Made by a program: the position numbers and the translations under genes
The notes under the pieces: generated by a model
What the model was told of the DNA's origin: nothing
The model's input: only the letters and a program-made list of their open reading frames with translations
Database searches by the model: none
Part shown: in pieces, positions 11,651 to 29,122 of the stretch
Position numbering within the stretch: position 1 is the stretch's first letter
How the letters are laid out: every line of letters begins with the position of its first letter
NCBI GenBank assembly: GCA_011032825.1
Contig: JAADJZ010000006.1
Location: 682,001 to 746,000 of the forward strand
Source of the DNA: Massariosphaeria phaeospora
Lineage: Eukaryota > Ascomycota > Dothideomycetes > Pleosporales
Direction: 5' to 3'
Length of the DNA stretch: 64,000 nt

Positions 11651-14600
11651 TGGCCAGGCCACCGACGTACGCATAACCTGTGTCGAAGTATGGAGTACGT
11701 GTGTATCGAGATGAAGCTTGTGTAGTGGAGCGCTCTTGGACGACGCTAACCTTTCGCCAGACGGCAACCTCTACGTCGGCACGTCCGCGCCAGAGATCCT
11801 GCACTTCGTCTTGCTCCCGCCCGAGTCGAACGACGCCGCGGCAGCACCCACTGCAATCCTAGCCTCGAGGCTTGAGCCTGTATATACTCACGCGACCGGT
11901 GCTGGCGTGCAACAAATCCTCCTCCTGCCGAAGGTCAACAAGGCCTGCATTCTATGCAACAACACCCTCACCTTCTACTCGCTGCCGGAGCTGAGCCCCG
12001 ACTCAAGCGTCAAGCCGCTAACATGTTCGTGGGTGGGTGGCGCGGATCTAAATGCGGAAGAAGATGATTCAGGCGGTCCCGGGGTCGTTCTTATGCTCGG
12101 GTTGAAGAACAGGATCCGTCTGATAAGAGTGTCGGAAGATGCGCCGCCACGAGGCATCAAGGCGGTAGATTACGGGGGCTGTCTCGTCTCTGTCCGCCGA
12201 GATAATTACTCGTGTGCCGCCGATTCGCATTCATACGCCCTACTAGACGTGGACCACCAGCAGAAGATCGGCCTGTTTCCTATCTCTTCGCTCGATCCCA
12301 ACGCTGGTGATGTCGGCGGAGCTGTCGAGGATATCACTGCGGCTCTGCATGGACCCTCGAGAAGCGTCTCTTCAGCGAGTGCGAATCCACGTGGTCTACA
12401 AGAGGAACAGCGAGGGCACAGTCGGAGTACAAGCCTGGGTATCTTTGGCACGAGCAGTCCGGCCTCGCTTCGCACCGATAGTCCGCGTCCAACGCGCCAA
12501 AGATACGGCTTTGATGTCCCGGAGTCACTGTCCAGGAACTTGTCTCCAGCACCGCCGCAATCGCCGGCAAGGTCCCCGGATAGACACCATCCAGAAAGGA
12601 CAACGAGTCTCCCAAGAACTCCGTCTCCAGACAAACCATTACCCCCTCCACCAGAAGAGGAGACGCCCACGCAAGAGGAGTCCTCTCAACCGCCACCATT
12701 TGTGCCGCTTAAAGCGCACATCGCATCACCTTCACCGAACGAATTCCTCCTTACTGTCGGCACCACACCTTCAGAGCCCGGTGTTGGCATGTTTGTAAAT
12801 CTAGACGGCGATATGTGCCGAGGGAGCATTCAGTTCAGCAGCTATCCGGATGCTATTGTAGTTGATGGAAGCGGTATCGATTTAGCTGCTTCTATGGCTC
12901 CGGACATGGACGCCGAAGAAGGCTATGTCATGGCCGTTGTGCATCACCAAGTAGACGACCATGCTGAATACGGCATTGAGATACAGCGATGGGATGTAGA
13001 TCCCGTAGAAGGAGAAGCCTCGAAGCAATGGCTGAATCTGAGCCTGATCGGTGACACTTCCGGGAACAGTGGAAGTCACGTTGCCATACCACTCGGCATC
13101 CGGAGAATCGTGGAGACGAACAATTTGGTCTTGCCAGAAATCGGTTCGAAGCTGTCTGTGAAGCGCCTCCAACTGTCGCGCTCGGAATCACGTTCACGCG
13201 ATGCTGAGCTTGCTAAGACTACAGCCACACAGGGAAAGGCAGACCTCGAGTTTACTGAGCGACTTTCAAGGCTTCAGACGCGCATTGTCATCTGGGCTGG
13301 CAATGAGATATGGTGGACAGTCCGCAATCCGCTTGTCACTCGGTTAGACGCTCGCCTACAGCAGGCGCAAGCGACTTCCACCGGCGATGAGCTTCATATA
13401 CAACCAAACAGGAGCCTGATAGAACGTCTACTTGGGGACATTCGAGGACAAGAATTTCACAACGAGGCCGAATACCTCAGCCTCATCTACATCCGCCAGA
13501 AAGCCTCAGTGTTGTTGTTCATGGACCTGATCCTTCGCAGTAGCACCAATATCATCATCTTCGAAGCCGAGAAGCGCATCACAGAACAAGCGCTCGTAAA
13601 CGGGGAAATCGATCCTCGAGTTGTCCTGTCTCTTATTCCTATTCTTAACCAAGAAGTTGTGCAAGGCCCGGAGGGCATTCAGATTTCTGGTGGTATTACT
13701 ACACTCGTTGAGGATTTCCTCGAACAGAATGATCTCACCGCAATGCGAACTACCGTCAATGGTCCTTTCGGCGACAACCTTCTACAACTCGTCAAGAGAT
13801 ACCTGCTGTTTTGGAAACGCAGAAAAGGAATGGCAAGCGTTACGAACGATCCATATATGTTCCAAACCGTTGACGCAGCGTTATTGCATATACTTCTACT
13901 CCTAGACCAGCAGTCTCCCAGGGGTCCTGCGACCACTGGTTCACTACGTGCTGAGCTCAACGAGCTTGTAGATAATGACGTCGAATGCTTCGACCGTGCT
14001 GTTATTCTGCTTGAAGACTTCAAACGTCTGTACGTGTTAAGTCGCTACTACCAGCGCACTAGCAAAGCATCCATGAAGGCCGTCAACGTGCTCGCAACCT
14101 GGAGGCGTATCATGGAGGGTGAGACGGATGATGGCGGAGAATTTGTCGATGGAGATAACGAAGTGCGCAAGTATCTCACCCGAATCCGAGATCAGTCGAT
14201 AGTAGAAGAATATGGCGCGTGGCTTGCGAACAGGAATCCGAGACTCGGTGTTCAGGTCTTTGCCGATGATAACAGCAGGGTGAGGTTTGAACCCACACAT
14301 GCTGTCGCCCTCTTGAAAGAGAGGGCGCCCGGTGCTGTCAAAGAGTACCTTGAGTATCTCGTCTTTGGCAAAAAGGTTTGTGCACACTCGCGCTATGACG
14401 ATACTTCCTGACACTACCACAGCACACCCAATACGTCAACGAGCTCATTAAATTCTACCTCGACATCGTTATAACCGAACTCTCCACCAACCCTACCTCC
14501 CGTACTACCCTCCTCGAAACCTACACCACATACCGCATCTTGCACCCGCCCAAACCCACTTACCGCCAGTTCATCACCGACAACGCCCTTTCCGCCGAAT

Positions 14601-16101: not shown

Positions 16102-17139
16102 ATGCGACGCCTGTCTTCGTCGTCCACCACGACTTCAGAGCAGCACAGGCACAAGCGACCGTTCCAGCCGTCGATTGCTCGCTTCTTTGCACGCGACGCC
16201 CCAAACGAGGTCGAGGCTGGGCTTGAGTGGGGTTCAGCTCCCGGTCCGATTACCCGAAGCCACCACTATCAACAACTCGAGCGGCAGCGAGCGGCTGCAC
16301 CACAGCGCCAGAGCGGTGTTCCCAGCGTGCCCGGTCACGTACAAGCCGATCTGCTGAGTGTCGGGATGCGGGTTCGAAAGAGCGTGCCTGAGGGCTACAA
16401 GACACACAAGAGGGTTGCGCTGCCGTCGATCCAGACCACCTTGTCGAAAGCCCCTAGTTCCACGACGATTACCGCCACCATAACACCACTCGGAGCCGAA
16501 TACAGCGTCAAGCTGCCTGGCGATGTCGACCCAGAAGACTTCCAGCATGAGAGGGAGTTGTTGCCGTTCTGCGGACTGCACAAGATTGGCGGCTTCGCGG
16601 AACAGCCGGTCACAAACGTCCATCTCTACGGTGGCAAAGACGACAATGGGGTCCGGCCGGTGAACATATTCCCACTACCCGCCGAAGCCTTCATCCAGCC
16701 CTTCTCTTCACAAGACTCAACTGCCACATCCTTCTCGGCCGAGCTGATACTGCCGAACCCCGCAAACCCGCAAAAACGCTCCTGGCAAGACGAAGACGCC
16801 TGCCGGCCGAAGCTCAGCTCCACCTACCTCTTCGCCCTCCCCAAAAAGTTCTCCGACGACGACGTCCCCGTCTCGCCGCTCTCGGCAACCCCGCCGCAGT
16901 CCATACCACAAGCCGCGCTCCGGCCCTTCGCGCAGCCCAAGACGCGGAAAGCAGGGCTACGTGTCGTCGAGGTCGAAGCCGGGCTGTTCAAAGAGCTGGA
17001 TATGGATATGGATGCGGAGAACGCTGAGCAGCAGAGCGAAGGGCGTGTTGCCGTGGGCAGCTCGAGCGACTTCGACGATGCCGAGTTCCTGCGGCCGTGG
17101 TCGCCGCCGGGGCGTGAGGTCGATATGGGCGGCGTGTGA
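16102..17139 (+). CDS. Ribonucleotide reductase inhibitor, Dif1/Spd1/Sml1-type
   Basis: Small RNR-regulating proteins of this family control dNTP supply by inhibiting RNR or by importing its small subunit into the nucleus (Dif1 in budding yeast, Spd1 in fission yeast). The frame from ATG 16102 encodes 345 residues. Residues about 17-29 carry HKRPFQPSIARFF, and residues about 80-102 carry VQADLLSVGMRVRKSVPEGY, the hallmark of the fungal RNR-inhibitor domain. The rest is low-complexity, proline- and serine-rich and acidic toward the end. The frame stays open upstream to an ATG at 15904, but that extension is unconserved-looking and proline/arginine-rich, so 16102 is preferred. No intron. Expected regulation is S-phase/DNA-damage degradation, by homology only. 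Confidence 0.85.
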   Translation: MRRLSSSSTTTSEQHRHKRPFQPSIARFFARDAPNEVEAGLEWGSAPGPITRSHHYQQLERQRAAAPQRQSGVPSVPGHVQADLLSVGMRVRKSVPEGYKTHKRVALPSIQTTLSKAPSSTTITATITPLGAEYSVKLPGDVDPEDFQHERELLPFCGLHKIGGFAEQPVTNVHLYGGKDDNGVRPVNIFPLPAEAFIQPFSSQDSTATSFSAELILPNPANPQKRSWQDEDACRPKLSSTYLFALPKKFSDDDVPVSPLSATPPQSIPQAALRPFAQPKTRKAGLRVVEVEAGLFKELDMDMDAENAEQQSEGRVAVGSSSDFDDAEFLRPWSPPGREVDMGGV

Positions 17140-17991
17140 GCAGCTCCACCCACCGAACAGGGAACGACAGGCTAGCGATAGCATTGCTACGCCTGATACC
17201 GAGCAAGCTACAAACTGCGCACCAAGACCCGATGCTGGCACAAACTGCCGGCGATTCATGTGTACTCTTCTCTTCTGTTTTGATATCCCCTTTTCTCTAC
17301 ATGTCCTCTACGCAATGTCGTCTGTTTCATGCCATTTCACCTCCAGCCTAGACCGGCACAATCTCCTTGCTGTCATCATCTCCATTTTCCTTGGCAAATG
17401 TTTACCAGCACAGAGCGGCGTAGCGGTGTTTTGGGGGGACGGTTTCCTGGTCGGGGTGGGCGGAGTATACCCTGCAAACAGGCAAATCTTCCATGCTGGT
17501 CTGTTGTTTACTCGCAGCGCGACTTAGAATCGCACAGTTAATGCTTCACACCTCATATTTCGGTCATGTCGTAGCTTTTAGTTGGGTTTATAGAGCATTG
17601 GGTTTAGGGAATACATACTTACAACGTACTTACTTTGACACAACTCGGGCGTGAGGAGGATACTTTGAGCTGCAGCGAACAAGTTATGACCACCACGACC
17701 ACCACGACCACCAACAGAGATGTAGAGTATGCAATGCTTTAAGATACATGCTAAATTGTAATGCTGGCAGGAGACTAGATCATACAGAGTCCGCCAACTG
17801 AATGCGTAGAGAAGCGACAACGTCCATGCTAACGTTAGACATGAATACACCGTGCCGGCGTTCTCAGTTCCATCCTCCGATCCTCCCCAGTCGTGGCAGT
17901 TGGCTGTGCGCATGACGAAATTGTTCGAACAGGTCAACAAAGAAGTCCGGAAGGTCTAGCCCATGGAAACTGATTTGCCAACAGCAGGCGC
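17140..17991. other. Convergent 3' spacer
   Basis: Lies between the RNR inhibitor and the four-TM gene, which converge. A short trinucleotide-like run (ACC/ACG, about 17687-17712) is the only notable structure. No gene recognised. Confidence 0.4.
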
Positions 17992-19592: not shown

Positions 19593-19794
19593 AATGGGCT
19601 CTTGCGGAAACCTGATCTCCGGAACTAAGGCTGAACACGCTACGTTGTAACTAAAGCTCTATCTACTTAGATTTTATACTGTGTCTTGTAAGATCAAGTA
19701 AACGCTGTGTGTCAGATTGTAGCTTTCTATTGTTATATTAACTAACTTACTGCGTTAGATGATCCTTTTGGAGGCGCGCAGATTTATCTCTTTA

Positions 19795-19835
19795 ACGTCC
19801 CTCCCTATAGGTAGAAAAATCCCCCGCGCCGAAAA
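19795..19835 (+). repeat. Left terminal inverted repeat of the 9.2 kb element
   Basis: Starts ACGTCCCTCCCTATAGG and ends CGCCGAAAA. It pairs with 28951-28991 on the other strand, with 35 of 41 positions identical. Confidence 0.9.
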
Positions 19836-19935
19836 TTTTGAGGGGTACTTCAACTTCGAGAGCCTTAACAGCCACGCACACAGTAGCATTACCTACAGAG
19901 ACTATGTAATTGTGAGTAGTAGCTAATCTTAGATA

Positions 19936-19996
19936 ACGTACCTCACGGGTTCGTGCATCACACGGGTTCGTGCATCACTTTTGCCAAGCCCCCACC
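19936..19996 (+). repeat. Left TIR of the nested Fot1-like element
   Basis: A 61 bp terminal inverted repeat with an internal tandem 17 bp unit. It matches the reverse complement of 21739-21799 except at one C/T position. Confidence 0.9.
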
Positions 19997-20264
19997 AAAA
20001 CCACCCCATTCTGGCGCAAAACAGCCCACTTTGGCTCTGTGTAGAGTAATATAACACGAGATATTATTCAGAGTCTACTTCTACTGCTTGCTTACACGTA
20101 CGCGCGTTGTGCTCAGCCTAATGACACCGTCCACACCGTCTTTGAGATGGTTCACCTGCTTCAGCGCGCACTCGCGTCTTTAGCTTCTTCTTATCACTAC
20201 GCGCCTCAAACTCCTTTAGAGCAGTCAGACGAGCTCCATCCTCAACTGTCAAGGTCCCTTCTGC

Positions 20265-21719
20265 CTAAACCCGCTTTCTTTTATGCGATTTACGTCGCGT
20301 AGCGGCCTCATTTGCTATCTTCAGTTCAGCTATCTCCCGTTGCGCCAACACTAGCTTGTGCGCGATAATAGCTGCCCCCTTTGAGACCTTCTCAAAGGCC
20401 TCTACTATAGACGTTGGTGAGCTATCTATATGCCTCTGAATCCTTGCCTTCACGAGCGTCGATTGCGACCCTAGTTCAAGGGTATTGCTTGAGGTTTGCG
20501 ACTGCCAGGGCTCGTTGTTGATAGGCAGTAGTGGTGATGGAGTACGTAGCCGGACGTCAAGGGCTGTTATGACCCGTTCTGGGTCAAATGGAACCAATCC
20601 AGCGCCTCGAAACCCTCCTTGGATATTACTAGAAGTAATTGCTGCATTATAGGCGCGTATAAAGCATGGTAGGAACTCAAGTTTTGTAATGTGGGTGATC
20701 TGGTTGCGCATGAGATCTTCGGCTTGGCGCCCGTACGCCTTCTTCAGAGGGGCAAAACAACCCACATCAAGAGGCTGCAGGAGGTGCGATGAGTGCGGAA
20801 GCATGCAGATAGTAATAATCTTGTTCTCCTTGCAGTATTGCTGGAATGCGAGCGAGTCATGGCTCTCATGGCCGTCGATTGCGAGCAGTCGGTAGCTGCC
20901 AACTACTCTCTTCTTTGTATGCTCATTAAAGTGCTTCAACTACTGCAGCCTAAGCTTATTTGTTGTCCAGCCCTTCTTAGAGACTGCAATAACCCAGTCC
21001 TAGGGCAGATTCTCCTCCTTGTACCAGGCAGAGAGGTGATAGTAGCCCTTGAAGATAATAAAGGGTAGAATGGCCCACCCTGTCGCGTTGATGCCTTGGA
21101 TGACCGTCGTCCACTCTCTATTGCCTTGCTGTATTGCCTTTGGCCGTCCTCGTTTCTCTAAAGCGGTAACAACTGCCCCAGTTGATATCTGGCCCATTAT
21201 GAAGCCTGTCTCGTCAAAGTTGTACGTGTCTACATCCTGGATACCGTACTTGGCTTTTATGTTAGCTACTAGGCGAAACCAGCCTTGGATAACCTCAAGA
21301 TCCTCGCAGAGCGCTCTCTTGTAATCGTACTTGCGATTGAACTTCATTGTGAACTCAGGGCGGTGCATAACCCACGTACTGGGCTAGTTTAAGCCAACCT
21401 GGCTCAGATTGCGCTCTGCGCGCAAGGAATTGGCCATATCAGCTACAGCTGCGAGCCTAGGGGGAAATCCGCGCGATATGAGCTCAAGTATATACTCAAC
21501 AACTACGCCCTCCTCGGTCTTTGTTAGATTCCTTGATTTAGGCCAGTAATCTGCTTGTGAAGTCTGTCCTGCGCGTCGGCGGCTTAGTGTTGATTGATCG
21601 ACGTTGTAGATAGCTGCAGCGCGTCGCTGAGAGAGTGTCGCGTCTTGTTTAAGAGCCTGAAGCGCAAGCTGTATCTGACGTTCTTTAGAAGGTTCTATCT
21701 AGTGTTGTTGTTGAGGCAT
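20265..21719 (-). pseudogene. Fot1/pogo DDD transposase with four TAG codons
   Basis: Reading from ATG 21719, one frame of 485 codons runs to 20265 and is interrupted only by TAG at about 21699, 21384, 20998 and 20938. The N-terminal part has helix-turn-helix features (QALKQDATLSQRRAAAIYNV and STLSRRRAG), as in the Tc5/pogo DNA-binding domain. The DDE_1 catalytic core follows, with first Asp in YNFDETGFIMGQ, second in LLAIDGHESHDS and third in LLQPLDVGCFAPLKKAYG. The C-terminus is basic (RKSHKRKRV), probably a nuclear localisation signal. The two middle-to-late TAGs, LN-stop-PSTW and LQ-stop-LKHF, fall where relatives usually have Trp, consistent with TGG-to-TAG change. No frameshift was seen. 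Confidence 0.9.
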
Positions 21720-21738
21720 CACGTAGGAGGTAGAGTTT

Positions 21739-21799
21739 GGTAGGGGCTTGGCAAAAGTGATGCACGAACCCGTGTGATGCACGAACCCGTGAGGTACGT
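21739..21799 (-). repeat. Right TIR of the nested Fot1-like element
   Basis: Reverse-complement partner of 19936-19996, with the same duplicated 17 bp unit, followed by TA at 21800-21801. Confidence 0.9.
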
Positions 21800-21801
21800 T
21801 A

Positions 21802-22526
21802 CCTAAGATGTTACAAATACAAAAATTACCTTCTGTATCATCGCTGTACACTCGATTTACAAAAGGCGTTTTTTTATAGAACAACAAAGGTTGCTTGACG
21901 CAGCACTACTATAAGGCTCTTACTACTCTATAGACTCTAAGAAACTCTCTTCTTGCACTATAGTGCCTTCATGCAATGCTGGAATACTGTTATCAGTCCT
22001 AGGACGCTGTGGCGACTATAGTAATGCGAAGTTGCCACCCTGGTCGGTACGTCCAGCAGAGGCAACTTCCTATTATAACTAGCTAGTCACCAGGGCTTGC
22101 GTAATCACGTTAATGTAACTTAATTTACTACTAGCGGGCAGATAAGCTTAGCATGTGATTGTCAGCTTGAGTTGGATTGCTGTGAATAATTCGAGCCCAA
22201 GACACATAGGCAGGCCGATCTGCGCAACATATCGCAATAGCGCTCGCGAGAGCCCGCTAACCTAAGGACAACGCGCGATAGATGACTAGTAGACTACGCT
22301 CGTCCACCCACACGAACGATTCTGCCTCCAGCACCCGGCCTCCTTATACACATGTCTGCTGCTGCAGGAAGGCAGACGCGCGACCTCAGCCGCACGCGCT
22401 GGGGGCGGGAATGCTGCGCCAGCGATATCCGTCGAGGCACTCGCCAGGACGTAGGCCAGACACCACGCCTCCTTACGACTCGACCTTCACACTGTTCCGA
22501 TTCTTGCTATTAGGAACGCACACACT
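21802..22526 (+). promoter_or_regulatory. Upstream region of the NLR gene inside the element
   Basis: About 700 bp between the nested transposon and the NLR start. AT-rich to about 22150, then richer in GC. No coding frame with homology. The nested insertion therefore sits about 730 bp upstream of the NLR ATG and may have displaced distal promoter elements. Confidence 0.45.
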
Positions 22527-25500
22527 ATGCTCAGCAACGATCTCCGCCTGCTTGCGCTTGACGGTGGCGGTGTGCGCGGCCTATCTGCCCTGATGATCCT
22601 CGAGCAGCTGATGGAAGCTGTCAACCCAGATGCACCGCCAAAGCCGTGCGATTACTTCGACATGATCGGTGGGACGAGCACAGGCGGGTAGGCATATAAT
22701 TTAGCGGCATAGTTCAGATTGTGCTGACTTACTAGGCTGATTGCCGTCATGCTCGGCCGGCTGAGAATGAGCGTGGCCGACTGCATCACGGCGTACTTGT
22801 CGCTCTCTGACCGCGTGTTCCGCAAGACACAACATCGTGTAACGGTCAGGGGCAAGGTGCAGGGCCGCTTCAATGCAGAAGAGCTTATGCGGGCGGTGAA
22901 GGAGGTAGTGAAGCAGCAAGGCCTGCCCGAGGCTGTGTTGCTTAAGGATGTGCCTGAAGCAGGGTGTAGGGTGTAGGTCAAGTGTGACTCACATCAAAAT
23001 GTAGGCTTACAATTACAGCTTTGTGTGCGCGACAAGCAAGGAGACTAGCGAGACGGTCTGCCTCACGAGCTACCACACGCCGCGTGGCAACACCGATCTT
23101 CTGAACCGCGTAACGATATGGGAGGCGTGTCGAGCCACCTCGGCGGCCACCACCTTCTTCGATCCAATTGCGGTGGGCAGATTTGGTGAGGAGTTTGTGG
23201 ACGGGGCGACAGGGGCAAATAACCCAGTGTGGGAGGTGTGGGACCAGGCACAGCTTGTATGGGGACCAGAGCCGCTAGAGGGCAGGGTCAAGTGCCTGGT
23301 GTCTATTGGGACAGGGGTGCCGTCGCTCAAGCCGTTTAGGGACGATGTATTCAACATCGGCGAGACGCTAGTTGCTATCGCGACAGAGACAGAGGTGACG
23401 GCGGAGAGATTCCGGCGCGAGAGGGCACTGCTGGACAGCACTGGGCGGTATTACCGGTTCAACGTGGTGCGAGGGCTGGAGGACATTGGGTTAGAGGAAG
23501 CAAAGAAGATCAAGGAGATGGCGGCAGCGACACGGCGATACATCAGCTCTCAGGAGGTACACAAGCAGATGCAGAAGTGTGCTGGCAGCATTTCAGTCAG
23601 GGAATGTTAGTTCAAACGACTACCTTTGTGCAGGACCTGTAGCTAAAGTGCCTAGACTATGGCAACTACCGAATTATCTTGAGCCTTGAGGGCGTGCCAA
23701 AAGCGCGTCAATTTGTGGACAGGCCAGCGGAGATGGCGAAGCTCGAGCGCGTGCTCATGCCGCGACCAGGACAGAGCCAGCGTCAGAAGATGTACGTACT
23801 GCATGGCCTTGGGGGTATGGGCAAGACGCAGCTGGCAGTAGAGTTTGCACGACGACACCACCGCTGGTTCAGCTCGGTGTTTTGGCTGGACGGGCGAAGC
23901 GAGGATACACTCAAACGCAGCATTGCGAGTTGCGCTAGCAGGATCCCTCAAGGCCAGATTCCAGAGACAAGTATGGGATATACCGCGGATAGCAGCGCCG
24001 ATATTGCTGCTGTGGTAAAAGACGTTATGGCCTGGCTGGCACGGCCTGACAACACCGCCTGGCTGCTAATCTTCGACAATGTCGACCGAGAATACAAGGC
24101 GCAAGGTGGGGACCCTGATGCATACGACGTGAAGCGCTACCTGTCTAGTGCAGACCACGGATCGGTGCTAATGACGACTCGACTAGCTCGGCTGGAGCAG
24201 CTGGGAGAGTCGCAGCAGCTAGGCAAGGTTTCTGAGGAGCAAGGCCAGGCAATTTTTGAGAGCTGGTACAAAAAGAGGCACGGTAAGCTAAAGGCAGCAA
24301 ATTGTTTAACGTGAGTAATTAATGCTAACAGTATAACTATAGACATAGCCCAGGGCAAGCAGCTACTTGCGCTGCTGGACGGCCTGCCGCTGGCTATTGC
24401 ACAGGCAGGCGCGTACCTGCAGGAGAGCGGAATGGGATTGGCAAGCTATCTGGAGTTCTATACACAGCGGTGGAGCGAGCTGATGAAGGCCGATCACCTG
24501 GCCGACACGCCACTCCAGGATTATCCAGATCGCAGCGTGTGGACGACCTGGGCTATCTCGTACCAGGCGGTCTACGACAAACATGAAGCCACAGCTAGAC
24601 TGCTGCTTCTATGGTCGTTTCTTGACAACAAGAACTTGTGGTATGGCTTGTTTGCAGCAACGTGCGCGGCATCTACTGTAGCTGCTAGCCTGCTGTCGGC
24701 ATGGATTGGCCACATCGCGAGTAGTGAGCTTGACTTCAGCCAGGCGATGCAGCTGCTGCGCAGTTACTCACTGATCGAAGAGGTGGCAGAGACGACAAGC
24801 TATGCCACACATCCAGTCGTCCACCAGTGGGCACATCACTCGCAAGGCAAGTACTTCGCAATAGAGCTAAGCCAGCTAGCAGTGATTACTGTAGGGTCAG
24901 CTGTGCCAGGAAGCTCTACTCGCAACTACTCGACCTTGCAACGCTACCTTCTCCCGCATGCGCAGGCGTGCTCTAGGCATATAGTAAAGAGCGAGGCTGA
25001 TTGGTGGCTTAGTATCAACAAAGGCAATAATAGAGACCCTGATGATTATGACCGGCAGAAGGCAGTTCTTGATGCTATACACCGCTTAGGCATCCTCTAC
25101 GCGGACCAAGGCAAGCTGGGCGAGGCAGAGCAGATGTACGAGCGGGCGCTGCGAGGGAGAGAGGAGGCACTTGGACCTACCCACACGTCGACACTAATGA
25201 CGGTCAACAACCTAGGCATCCTCTACGCTGACCAAGGCAAGCTGGGCGAGGCAGAGCAGATGTACGAGCGGGCGCTGCGAGGGAGAGAGAAGGCACTTGG
25301 ACCTACCCACACGTCGACACTAACGACGGTCAACAACCTAGGCATCCTCTACGCTGACCAAGGCAAGCTGGGCGAGGCAGAGCAGATGTACGAGCGTGCG
25401 CTGCGAGGGTATGAGGAGGCACTTGGACCTACCCACACGTCAACACTAATAACAGTCAACAACCTAGGCATCCTCTACGCTGACCAAGGCAAGCTGGGCG

Positions 25501-26699
25501 AGGCAGAGCAGATGTACGAGCGGGCGCTGCGAGGGTATGAGGGGGCACTTGGACCTACTCACACGTCGACACTGGACACGGTCAACAACCTAGGCAACCT
25601 CTACAAGAACCAAGGCAAGCTAGGCGAGGCAGAGCAGATGTACGAGCGGGCGCTGCGAGGGTATGAGAAGGCACTTGGACCTACCCACACGTCGACACTA
25701 ATGACGGTCAACAACCTAGGCAACCTCTACGCGGACCAAGGCAAGCTAGGCGAGGCAGAGCAGATGTACGAGCGGGCGCTGCGAGGGTATGAGGGGGCAC
25801 TTGGACCTACTCACACGTCGACACTGGACACGGTCAACAACCTAGGCAACCTCTACAAGAACCAAGGCAAGCTAGGCGAGGCAGAGCAGATGTACGAGCG
25901 GGCGCTGCGAGGGTATGAGAAGGCACTTGGACCTACCCACACGTCGACACTAATGACGGTCAACAACCTAGGCAACCTCTACGCGGACCAAGGCAAGCTA
26001 GGCGAGGCAGAGCAGATGTACGAGCGGGCGCTGCGAGGGTATGAGGGGGCACTTGGACCTACTCACACGTCGACACTGGACACGGTCAACAACCTAGGCA
26101 ACCTCTACAAGAACCAAGGCAAGCTGGGCGAGGCAGAGCAGATGTACGAGCGTGCGCTGCGAGGGAGAGAGGAGGCACTTGGACCTACCCACACGTCGAC
26201 ACTAATAACGGTCAACAACCTAGGCATCCTCTACGCGGACCAAGGCAAGCTGGGCGAGGCAGAGCAGATGTACGAGCGTGCGCTGCGAGGATATGAGGGG
26301 GCACTTGGACCTACTCACACGTCGACACTGGACACGGTCAACAACCTAGGCAACCTCTACGCTGACCAAGGCAAGCTGGGCGAGGCAGAGCAGATGTACG
26401 AGCGTGCGCTGCGAGGGTATGAGGAGGCACTGGGTGAAGAGGCTGTTCAATGCTACTTGCCAGCACTCAACACATTAGAGAACGTAGGCAATCTCTATGC
26501 AGATCAAAGAGAAACCGCCAAAGCACACGCGGTTTACGTAAGGGCTCTATCTGGACTTCGCAGCGTACATGGTCAATCAAGCGACCGGTACTTATCATTA
26601 GCAGCGAGGATAGACGCTTTACCTACTCCTCAAAGCCGAAGGGAAGGAAAGAAGAATGCAAGGTTTTCGATACGAAAGTTGGCTAAGAAGTTGTTTTAA
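22527..26699 (+). CDS. Patatin/NB-ARC/TPR NOD-like receptor (PLP-1-type architecture)
   Basis: Five exons (22527-22687, 22736-22972, 23019-23605, 23656-24282, 24343-26699) join without a lesion to 1,322 residues. The N-terminal patatin-like phospholipase has the oxyanion loop GGGVRG (residues 13-18), the nucleophile elbow GTSTG (Ser51) and the catalytic DGA (Asp194), so it should be active on membrane lipids. The central NB-ARC ATPase has P-loop [11 protein letters not shown] (about 379), Walker B LLIFDNVD (about 466), GSVLMTTR and [13 protein letters not shown] (about 550). The C-terminus (about 783-1300) is ten near-identical 42-residue TPRs plus two diverged ones. Fungal NLRs of this architecture, such as Neurospora PLP-1, trigger cell death at allorecognition; this role is inferred here. 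The gene lies inside the 9.2 kb transposon, 23 bp from the transposase end. Least certain junction: 23606-23655, chosen for its GTTAGT donor and phase. Confidence 0.9.
25086..26471 (+). repeat. 126 bp tandem repeats encoding TPRs
   Basis: Ten consecutive 126 bp units (25086-26345) and an eleventh that diverges after two thirds. Each encodes a 42-residue kinesin-light-chain-like TPR with core [17 protein letters not shown] and [10 protein letters not shown]. Differences are confined to a few positions: ADQ/KNQ, the GYE/GRE region and the residue after STL (M, T, I or D). Units 5-6 and 7-8 form a 252 bp higher-order duplicate that appears identical at the base level. This marks recent unit gain by unequal exchange. 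Confidence 0.93.
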
Positions 26700-26722
26700 A
26701 ATGGTCCTTTCCTTGCACTATC

Positions 26723-28414
26723 CTAGTACATCCGCGCGACTGGGGCGCTCCATAGTGCTACTGTGTCCTTTGCTGCCTCTGAGGCTGCGCTCATCCGTAC
26801 TACTTTCGGGTTTGGCTCTCCTAAATCCGCCTCCGGCGCAGCACTCTTGCACTTCCGGCTACCTTTCCCCTTGCCTTTACCGGCAGAAGCTTTATCTTTC
26901 GCAACACGATTTGCTCGTGCTACCTCAAGATCTTCCCATTTCATCACCTTTGCCTTCTCTAAGACAAGTGATCTGGTTGACCGGCGAACTTTGGCGTCTT
27001 TATTGATTTCAGACAAAAATTGGTTCTGATCCCGGAGAAGAGCACATTCAGCAAAGGACATTTGTGCGGCGCTTGCGAGCTTCTGTACGTGCTTTCGAAT
27101 GCGCTGCTTACTCAGCTCGTGGGGCCCAGAAGTATCCTGTTTTATAAGGTTGTGCAGCGACGCCAAAGCCTCTGTTGTCACCGGCGTTACAGGCGATTGA
27201 GGTTCATGTTGGGGAAAAGATGCCACTACCTCAGCGACTTTTGGCAAGGTCTTTGCATCTGGAGGCCTTGGTGTATGTCTAAAGACTCTTTCTGGATTGA
27301 AAGGAAACAAGCCAGCTGCAGCCCATCCTGCTAAGATGTTCCTCTTGCGCAATGCTTTTCCTCTCGCAGGGCTGTAAAGAGAAGTAAAATGCTGATTGCC
27401 TACTGTGTCTACACCTCCACGGTTCAGTCGTTCAACCTTATCACGATAGGCTACTTTTAATGGGGCAAAAGGTCCAACATCGCAGGGCTGGAGCTTGTGA
27501 GAAGTGTGAGAGGGAAGACGACACAGAATAATGTTGTTCTCAAAGCAAAATTCCAGGACTTCCAGTGTCTCGTGAGTCCCGAAGCCATCGCATATTAGCA
27601 CCCGTGGCTTGCCATTAGCCTTGTCTTTAGTTTGGGGATCAAATACACGCGTTAGCTACTCTAGGCTGATTTTAGAGTTATTGTATCCGTTCTCCGAGTG
27701 CGCATAGTGCCACCCAGGGGTCGGGTAAGTAGTCCAGTTGCTTCGATGGGTTGAAGCTGGCCAGATGATTAGAGGTAATAGCGACTCACCGTCAGCACTT
27801 ATGCACTCTATTGCAGTTACCATTGTGCGCTTCACGCCCGCGCCTCGATAGTTACGCAGGTTATCCTTACCTACAAGGACCTTCACAGAGCCAAGCTTGC
27901 TTAGCATAACTCCTGTCTCGTCCATGTTGTGCACATTTTCTGGTCGGATGTCCGGCTCCTGTAGTACCTTGCTTATCACCTCAAACCGCTCCTTGATCTT
28001 GTAGTATATGTTGCCCTCGTGACGCTTCCAGTCTATTGCTTTGACTCTTCTCGCTTTGAGTTCAGGGTGACGTGTTTCGAAGGCCCGAGGCCAGTTCTTG
28101 CCGGGAGGCTTGATAAGGTTGTTTGTCGTAACGTTAGACCGCCGGCGGGCAATACTGAAGGCTAGTGAGGGAAGAAATTTGATCCGCACAGGATGCCCAA
28201 GACTGGACATAAGTAGCAGGAACTTAACCATGGCTTTTTCCTCCTCTGGAGTGAGGTATTGCTGGCTGTGGGCATGTTCCTCTTTTGAGCGTCGTCCATG
28301 TGCACGGTGATAGATTGTTGTTAGGGGAACATCGCCCCAGTCAGACAGGGCAGCGTACGTCCTGGGTACATCTACGGGTAAAGCTTGCGCCAGTACCTGG
28401 CTAGCACGATCCAT
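26723..28414 (-). pseudogene. Pogo/Fot1 DDD transposase with one nonsense codon
   Basis: A 564-codon frame from ATG 28414 to the stop at 26723, broken only by TAG at 27656-27658 in the context ISLE-stop-LTRVFDP, where relatives have Trp. The N-terminal helices (VPLTTIYHRAHGRRS and YLTPEEEKAMVKFLLLM) look like the CENP-B/Tc5 DNA-binding region. The DDE_1 core has first Asp in VHNMDETGVML, second in VLICDGFGTHETLEVLEF and third in LQPCDVGPFAPLKVAYRD. The C-terminus is coiled and very basic (KGKGKGSRKCKS). The nonsense codon separates the first catalytic Asp from the other two, so the truncated product would be inactive. The gene sits next to the right end of the 9.2 kb element and is its likely former transposase. 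A single base change explains the inactivation. Confidence 0.9.
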
Positions 28415-28950
28415 AGCGACTGTAGTGATGCGAACGGAACAAGTGAGGCCAGCAAGAACCGTACGAGCTCGATTCTAAAATTCGCTAGCGCTTGGACATT
28501 TCGAACACAGAAACTTCGAGAAGAGTGCGCCACACTTAGGATAATTATGGCATAGTGCCGATAGCTGCTAGGATAAAATACAATGCTAAGTAAGCACGCT
28601 AAATGTGCTTGCTGGAACACAGTGCCTGGGTTTGCGCGTAGAAACTTGTAGCCCAAGATTTTGCGAGCAGAATACCACAAAACTGTATGAAAATCTCGTA
28701 GTGAGCTATTGCTATACCGCTAATGCTCCGTAAACCAAAAAACATACCGATAAAAGCAGTGCCGTAGGGGTGCAAGCACAATGCGGTGCTAGATAACATA
28801 AGCAGAACGATCTACAGCACCACCAACACCGTTGTATTTTTTTCGTTACTAACTAGCGTTAGATAGAGGAATACATTAAGAGTATTATTAAGTCCTATGT
28901 AGCTCTATATACGGACGGTGTCGACATTTAAGAGTCTTAACTCAGGATTC
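28415..28950. other. Right-end non-coding part of the 9.2 kb element
   Basis: AT-rich, no coding frame with homology. Contains the presumed promoter of the transposase and leads to the right TIR. Confidence 0.5.
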
Positions 28951-28991
28951 TTTTCGGCGTAGGGGGTTTTTCAACTTGTAGGGAGGGACGT
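28951..28991 (-). repeat. Right terminal inverted repeat of the 9.2 kb element
   Basis: Reads TTTTCGGCGTAGGGGG at its inner edge and GGGAGGGACGT at its outer edge. Inverted relative to 19795-19835. TA follows at 28992-28993. Confidence 0.9.
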
Positions 28992-29122
28992 TAGTTCCAG
29001 AGATTCCGTTTCCGTGAGAGAATGGGCATGGCCTGCAGACTACGTCTTCTCCACACCAAGCACGTTCCAAACGCTAGTCCGTAGAAGCGCCCGCAATCTC
29101 GTGTTCTCACTTATGTCGGTCA

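Follow-up and report, generated by a model that had tools for sequence, protein, structure and literature searches.

A TA-flanked pogo/Fot1-like transposon with a complete NOD-like receptor gene in Massariosphaeria phaeospora, probably one of a receptor-carrying family

We analysed a 64,000-nucleotide stretch of the genome of Massariosphaeria phaeospora, a member of the Pleosporales (the window; positions 682,001 to 746,000 of JAADJZ010000006.1, part of the contig cited here as C48), in which a NOD-like receptor (NLR) gene and a transposase gene lie between one pair of terminal inverted repeats (TIRs). Judged from sequence, the locus is best explained as a single cut-and-paste transposon of the pogo/Fot1 type (Tc1/mariner) that holds a complete NLR and belongs to a family usually carrying NLRs, a reading to which we give a probability of roughly 0.87. 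Receptors of this kind serve in self/non-self recognition. Because sister elements carry other, quite different receptors, it appears that a single transposon family assembled and reshuffled part of the fungus's set of receptors. The search space was the M. phaeospora genome, 42.08 Mb in 51 contigs, to which all C numbers refer. The features of the window, numbered from its first letter, are as follows.

19793..28993: outer element of 9,201 bp with both TA counted; minus the nested element, about 7.3 kb
19793..19835, plus strand: left TIR including TA, 37/43 against the right end
19934..21801, minus strand: nested Fot1-like element, 1,868 bp between tips; arms 19926-19999 and 21736-21809, 97%
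22527..26699, plus strand: patatin-STAND-TPR NLR, 1,323 amino acids, no stop; five exons on the plus strand, 22527-22687, 22736-22972, 23019-23595, 23643-24282 and 24343-26699
22560..23214, plus strand: patatin motifs DGGGVRG (22560-22580), GTSTG (22671-22685) and DGATG (23200-23214)
23805..24410, plus strand: STAND nucleotide-binding core, with GLGGMGKT (23805-23828), LLIFDN (24063-24080) and a 10-residue motif (24381-24410)
25087..26472, plus strand: TPR array, eleven TPR_10 stretches in 126-nt units
26723..28414, minus strand: outer pogo/Fot1-like transposase, Met at 28414, DDE_1 on both halves
28951..28993, minus strand: right TIR including TA, 37/43 against the left end

An earlier note on this stretch had proposed that inverted ends on a TA target enclose an NLR and a transposase, and this was borne out. 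The arms of the outer element are complementary at 37 of 43 positions counting TA, 9,115 nt separate them, and TA stands at both tips, as it likewise does at those sister ends that were listed; from left to right they enclose the nested Fot1-like element, the NLR (plus strand) and the transposase (minus strand). A 32-nt end consensus derived from the two ends occurs genome-wide, with up to 3 mismatches, only in those two places, and its reversed control gave 0 matches in the 42.08-Mb genome. The left 65 bp of the element resemble C2:634364-634428 (80%), the likeness beginning 1 bp before the tip, and the right terminal segment of about 527 bp resembles C39:6097-6622 (66.7%), the likeness ending 2 bp past the tip. 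Since both likenesses end within 2 bp of the outer tips, though the flanks were compared too, the TIR match does not arise from unrelated repeats, and the NLR lies between the ends together with the transposase; two of the three circumstances that the earlier note had named as fatal to its proposal, a TIR match from unrelated repeats and TIRs flanking only the transposase, were not encountered. At C2:634364-636014, the site of the end resembling the outer left end, a STAND domain is found 1 kb further in, and part of a transposase is present at 638281.

The receptor gene is intact, as had been claimed for a five-exon patatin/NB-ARC/TPR gene: all exons are open and encode 1,323 amino acids. Its introns (46-60 nt, GT..AG) were chosen by hand, the exon 3/4 junction being the least certain, and the public model BDV95DRAFT_616739 (1,084 amino acids), with 100% identity across 80% of the 1,323-residue model, has different gene limits. 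The N-terminal part matches Pfam Patatin (8.4e-22), and the DGGGVRG, GTSTG and DGATG stretches are what we take to be the oxyanion, nucleophile and catalytic-aspartate motifs of patatin. An effector domain, a STAND NTPase and a repeat domain are combined in one protein, the combination by which a fungal NLR is recognised. In the working model of fungal NLRs the TPR domain is the sensor, STAND the switch and the patatin lipase the effector, and by analogy the window NLR should function like other fungal NLRs. TPR units 1-10 are alike at 88-100% (mean 92.6%) and unit eleven diverges in its second half; in seven other NLR repeat arrays that were measured, the match between repeats is 87-93%. With its N-terminal effector, nucleotide-binding core and near-identical C-terminal repeats the protein resembles the HET-D/E-type NLRs of high internal conservation (PMC12222747), whereas the NLRs of the window family are located inside TIR elements. 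Homologs of the NLR are found in Clohesyomyces, Alternaria, Pyrenophora, Parastagonospora and others among the matches listed. Immediately next to a patatin-NLR paralog (55%) at C6:452287-455558 is a transposase with an open frame that belongs to another Fot1-like clade.

The aspartates of the outer transposase are encoded at 27922, 27589 and 27481, with 35 residues between the last two, so that DDE_1 is present with its third aspartate and with DD35D spacing, which is typical of the pogo/Fot1 group. DD35D is also found in the open transposase of contig C9, to which the window protein is 62% identical. As to class and position, then, the pogo/Fot1 DDD transposase predicted by the earlier note stands; its frame is interrupted by a single in-frame TAG (27656-27658), and the window copy is probably immobile in cis. 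At E 0.001 neither half of the window transposase nor the C9 protein gave a match to a helix-turn-helix of CENP-B type, and PF03221 is listed for some homologs. Among the matches listed (120 of 679), homologs occur in Curvularia, Pyrenophora, Bipolaris, Alternaria, Botrytis and others. In a separate listing the two nearest to the window copy are 86% identical over its full length, 566 residues, and lie on JGI contigs of about 4 kb. Comparison by eye of the transposase and NLR homolog lists (120 listed of 679, 1,274 and 1,068) revealed no small contig common to both. A pattern search for relatives gave 15 matching stretches among viral contigs and 10 among prokaryote ones, none of them confirmed.

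The earlier note's inference that a small TIR/TA element encoding a pogo/Fot1-like transposase carries the NLR as cargo finds support at the window locus, and more in its sisters. With the open 750-codon C9 transposase frame as query, 60 of 1,086 candidates were scored (more loci are possible), and 12 of the 60 rows, representing 11 loci, were at least 48% identical to C9, the remaining 48 rows reaching at most 36%; the 11 loci are referred to as the family. Two further fragments, C2:638281 and C33:182565-183139, were seen outside the 11-locus list. STAND domains were mapped with NPHP3_N (66 matches, 87/87 candidates scored) and NB-ARC (8 matches, 17/17 scored), to which were added 15 of 36 rows, those reaching the STAND part of the window NLR (40/40 scored); merging of matches within 3 kb gave 78 loci. 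Of the 11 family loci, 9 have an NLR no more than 5.5 kb away, whereas none of the 48 other Fot1-like loci does (Fisher 4e-9); when the window locus is excluded, the family count is 8 of 10 (Fisher 2e-8). The 5.5-kb limit was chosen after the distances were known. With a 7-kb limit and the merged list the counts are 9/11 for the family and 2/48 for the controls; with the Pfam-only list they are 7/11 versus 0/48 at 5 kb, 8/11 versus 2/48 at 7 kb and 8/11 versus 4/48 at 10 kb.

The ends themselves give a similar picture. A pattern of 30 places, written from four sites (both C9 elements, C48 and C20), matched 19 times genome-wide (reversed control, 0), at 12 sites, seven two-ended and five one-ended, the latter being searched for NLRs over 7 kb inward. 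A STAND NLR is present in 10 of the 12 sites, where chance placing would give 0.18; of the eight sites independent of the writing of the pattern, seven hold an NLR, or six of seven without C39, which was known beforehand to bear one. Altogether 16 of the 78 STAND loci are tied to the family, 10 with both ends located and six with one end or an adjoining family transposase. It could be argued that NLRs and transposases simply gather in transposon-rich regions and that the window NLR happens to lie between ends of different insertions, since the genome is rich in transposon copies, since Het genes near transposons have been reported, by proximity, in Pyrenochaeta lycopersici (PMC6034849), and since at two of the nine NLR-near loci (C9 and C39) the NLR is in another, nested or adjoining, element than the transposase. 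Such a coincidence would have to accommodate the complete lack of NLRs within 5.5 kb of the 48 other transposases, window ends unique in the genome at 3 mismatches, likenesses to other loci that halt at the tips, and four sisters with paired ends around transposase and NLR, and we regard it as very improbable. Genes hit by old transposon insertions are reported to be depleted in ankyrin and WD40 motifs (PMC6416283). End-like stretches were also seen at C45:2034484-2035048, C22:569403-569865 and C1:2927557-2927895, about 1-9 kb from NACHT domains, and these may be more carriers.

The elements compared with the window locus, with their cargo, are the following.

C48:521143-530990: 9,848 bp, 478-bp inverted ends (82%); transposase and PigL_N-NACHT-WD40 NLR, SesA slightly below its cut-off
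C2:247337-257273: 9,937 bp; transposase and HET-NACHT-WD40 NLR; nested 1.7-kb element
C17:223622-230267: 6,646 bp, 48-bp ends (90%); transposase and HET-NB-ARC-TPR NLR
C33:97812-105580: 7,769 bp; transposase and NACHT-ANK NLR
C20:473435-478592: 5,158 bp, both ends; NACHT, with WD40 by DNA likeness to C2; no family transposase in the 11-locus list
C9:464317-476626: outer C9 element, NACHT-ANK NLR; right end as a 30-nt match only
C9:469917-475172: inner C9 element, open transposase and kinase
C39:13037-18453: NLR-only; NACHT at 14372, ankyrin array 16953-17678, the stretch between mostly unread

In four sisters (C48, C2, C17 and C33) both ends were read with transposase and NLR inside. C9 had been considered as a single 10.9-kb element, which was rejected in favour of two nested elements because of the additional end at C9:476626; its transposase is the only full-length stop-free row of the family list among the 60 scored, and the kinase of the inner element is a protein kinase open reading frame at C9:471061-471828 (L054). 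Behind each of two further transposases, C1:1334911 and C1:2379188, there is an NLR of HET-NACHT type; judged by coordinates alone, C17:276931-285240 and C49:1398354-1405515 enclose STAND domains. At C39:13037-18453 a piece of a transposase follows directly on the right end, without a gap. The orientation of NLR and transposase varies: they are convergent in the window element and in C17, on the same strand in C2, C33 and both C1 loci, and divergent in C48, which fits separate captures. C34:2108-2577 and C39:13036-13507 share a 30-nt end with NACHT 1.3 kb inside and are possibly two copies of a single NLR element. In the family TIRs, for example that of C48:521143, a short motif resembling AGCGGAACA occurs twice, and the two may serve as paired sites for transposase binding. 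C31 was tried as a sister with patatin cargo and was not counted as one because no end pair was found.

The pair C17 and C33 is, as far as the alignments go, a case of cargo replacement, because the two have a common backbone and unrelated NLRs. They are alike from the tip (223621 and 97811, respectively) through the transposase, at 93.9% over 722 and 85.6% over 1,477 positions; beyond this shared backbone of about 2.2 kb there is a HET-NB-ARC-TPR gene on the opposite strand in one and a NACHT-ANK gene in the other, and at the right end of each the resemblance resumes. Between their left flanks (1.5 and 0.5 kb compared) there is no match, and their transposases are sisters in the tree (100/100). 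The pair C2 and C20 is the reverse of this, with the same NLR end on separate contigs and a family transposase in C2 only: the 3′ part of the NLR and the end are common, 76.6% over 1,518 positions, starting 16 bp inside the C2 tip. Between C2 and C1:1336767 the NLRs are 69% and the transposases 73% alike, and these transposases stand apart in the tree, at forks with modest or open support. The shared blocks also bear on whether the window NLR sits in a non-autonomous TIR element into which the transposase was inserted separately. NLR-only relatives do exist (C39:13037-18453, C20 and the outer C9 element), but no end pair surrounds the window transposase alone in the inverted-repeat list, that transposase begins 579 bp in from the right tip and the open C9 frame 488 bp in from its own, and tip and transposase form one common block in C17 and C33. 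A separate insertion is therefore unlikely in our estimate, though less so than a chance gathering.

Stops are present in the matched transposase part at 9 of 11 family loci, and are largely TAG, the stop-free loci being C9 and C1:1334950 (the latter a partial match), whereas the six NLR pieces of C2, C9, C17 and C33 are all stop-free. With a TpA/ApT ratio of 1.49, the transposases of C17 and C33 stand above their NLRs (0.83 and 0.86); transposase and NLR have 1.12 and 0.93 in C48, 0.97 and 0.87 in C2, and 0.83 and 0.99 in C9. The backbone differences between C17 and C33 comprise 195 transitions and 37 transversions. The pattern in this pair fits repeat-induced point mutation (RIP) of the duplicated part, a process that we infer for M. 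phaeospora. In the NLR of C48 there are two TAA triplets, both at GCTAAC, which we take to be like intron branch sites, and an in-frame intron fits the second.

A number of observations weigh against the single-transposon reading of the window locus or its extension to a family, besides the stop in the window transposase and the divided arrangement at C9 and C39. The outer TIR ends mismatch at 6 of 43 positions, and there is no second full-length copy of the outer unit in this genome. The NB-ARC match of the window NLR, at 1.9e-4, is under the Pfam cut-off; the P-loop motif GLGGMGKT is present. No end pair was found around transposase and NLR at either of the two C1 loci, and two stops interrupt the NACHT part of the NLR at the first of them. 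The loci C7 and C31 lack a STAND NLR within 5.5 kb (a patatin exon adjoins C31), the fragment C33:182565-183139 has none nearby in the STAND lists, and the inner C9 element is a well-formed sister with kinase cargo and no NLR. At C5:81792-97868 an end pair 16 kb apart, around a more distant transposase (32%), yielded no NLR in the STAND searches. When the flanks of the C39 element were joined, the transposase did not carry on into the left flank, so that no empty site resulted. The transposase tree leaves 8 of its 15 inner branches open and does not place the window transposase. As to decay, the second C1 locus has TpA/ApT of 1.17 in the transposase and 1.21 in the NLR (C1:2371382-2375444), and in the window the whole NLR has 1.20 (2.10 in the TPR part, 0.97 without repeats) versus 1.04 in the transposase, with flanks at about 0.75; the contrast between transposase and NLR is therefore clear for C17 and C33 only.

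If the single-transposon reading is correct, a transposase acting in cis where intact, or in trans (for example from the open C9 copy), would bind the TIRs, and the DD35D enzyme would move the whole unit by cut-and-paste into TA. NLRs may have entered such backbones on several occasions or passed from one backbone to another, probably through nested insertion or recombination. RIP-like point mutation would later have damaged many backbones while most readable NLR frames remained open, and selection may be what keeps them open. We think it somewhat probable that the window NLR, once carried in, is now a stationary host gene under selection, as the broken transposase, the nested insertion and the single copy would suggest, although the open full-length family transposase in the same genome could act in trans. 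This agrees with the transposon origin and differs from it on present activity only, the narrower question to which our judgement applies. Going further, the pogo/Fot1-like family may have become specialised as an NLR carrier, with interchangeable cassettes, common ends, and transposase-bearing and NLR-only forms, in which receptor swapping itself protects the cargo; because each cargo differs, RIP would hit the common backbone and spare the receptor. We consider the chances of this to be about even. Fungal NLR repertoires turn over fast and differ between close relatives. A small TA transposon family that bears a transposase, holds NLRs of many types and shows replaced cargo would be a second, simpler NLR carrier beside the giant Starship elements, traceable in any long-read genome set.

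There is precedent for a TA transposon with an NLR. ToxhAT is a 14.3-kb TIR element with a patatin-TPR gene placed by its authors in the NLR family (PMC6737239); it has been renamed ToxTA for its TA target duplication, one transposition event has been seen, and it is likely a non-autonomous Tc1/mariner element (PMC12506042). The arrangement of ToxTA, a patatin-TPR NLR between TIRs on TA, is found in the window element, and both are Type II elements of Pleosporales with a nested Tc1 element. In contrast, ToxTA is 14.3 kb long, has 74-bp TIRs, carries ToxA and an MFS gene and likely lacks autonomy, whereas the window element has an internal pogo/Fot1-like transposase, TIRs matching over 43 nt and sisters with other NLR types. 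The remark in the earlier note that its author knew of no described Fot1-type NLR carrier needs qualifying because ToxTA/ToxhAT, though described as non-autonomous, has been published. New here is a family that brings its own transposase, holds many types of NLR, has swapped cargo and includes relatives with an NLR alone. Its transposases are a candidate class for mobilising NLR elements on TA that have been called non-autonomous, ToxTA among them. No NLR-carrying TIR element of this kind appears in the available portions of PMC12258605 and PMC10691877, and no pogo/Fot1 family with NLR cargo was recognised among the literature matches listed, supplements, preprints and most subscription papers being outside the scope.

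NLR cargo has otherwise been ascribed to Starships (PMC9815663, PMC9594970), which like the window element carry NLR and patatin genes, both being among Starship accessory genes (PMC12506042). What sets Starships apart is their large size and a captain that is a tyrosine recombinase. Of 19 DUF3435 matches in the genome not one, and hence no captain match, is on contig C48, and the unit is bounded by TIRs on TA, which makes it extremely improbable, the least probable of the alternatives considered here, that the window element is part of a Starship. With pogo/Fot1-like fungal transposons, on the other hand, it has the DD35D transposase, the TIRs and the TA target in common. The nested example in the window measures 1.87 kb and encodes a transposase only, whereas NLR carriers with both ends read span 5.2-9.9 kb.

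This nested element was missed by the earlier note and is separate from the outer one. Its transposase frame (21698-20265) has three in-frame stops. The family to which it belongs is numerous, with about 40 copies. At least 42 of 121 matches to it span most of the element, the window copy included, a lower bound with 40 of 479 candidates scored. The tip of the nested element, TAACGTACCTCAC, resembles the outer tip, TAACGTCCCTCCC.

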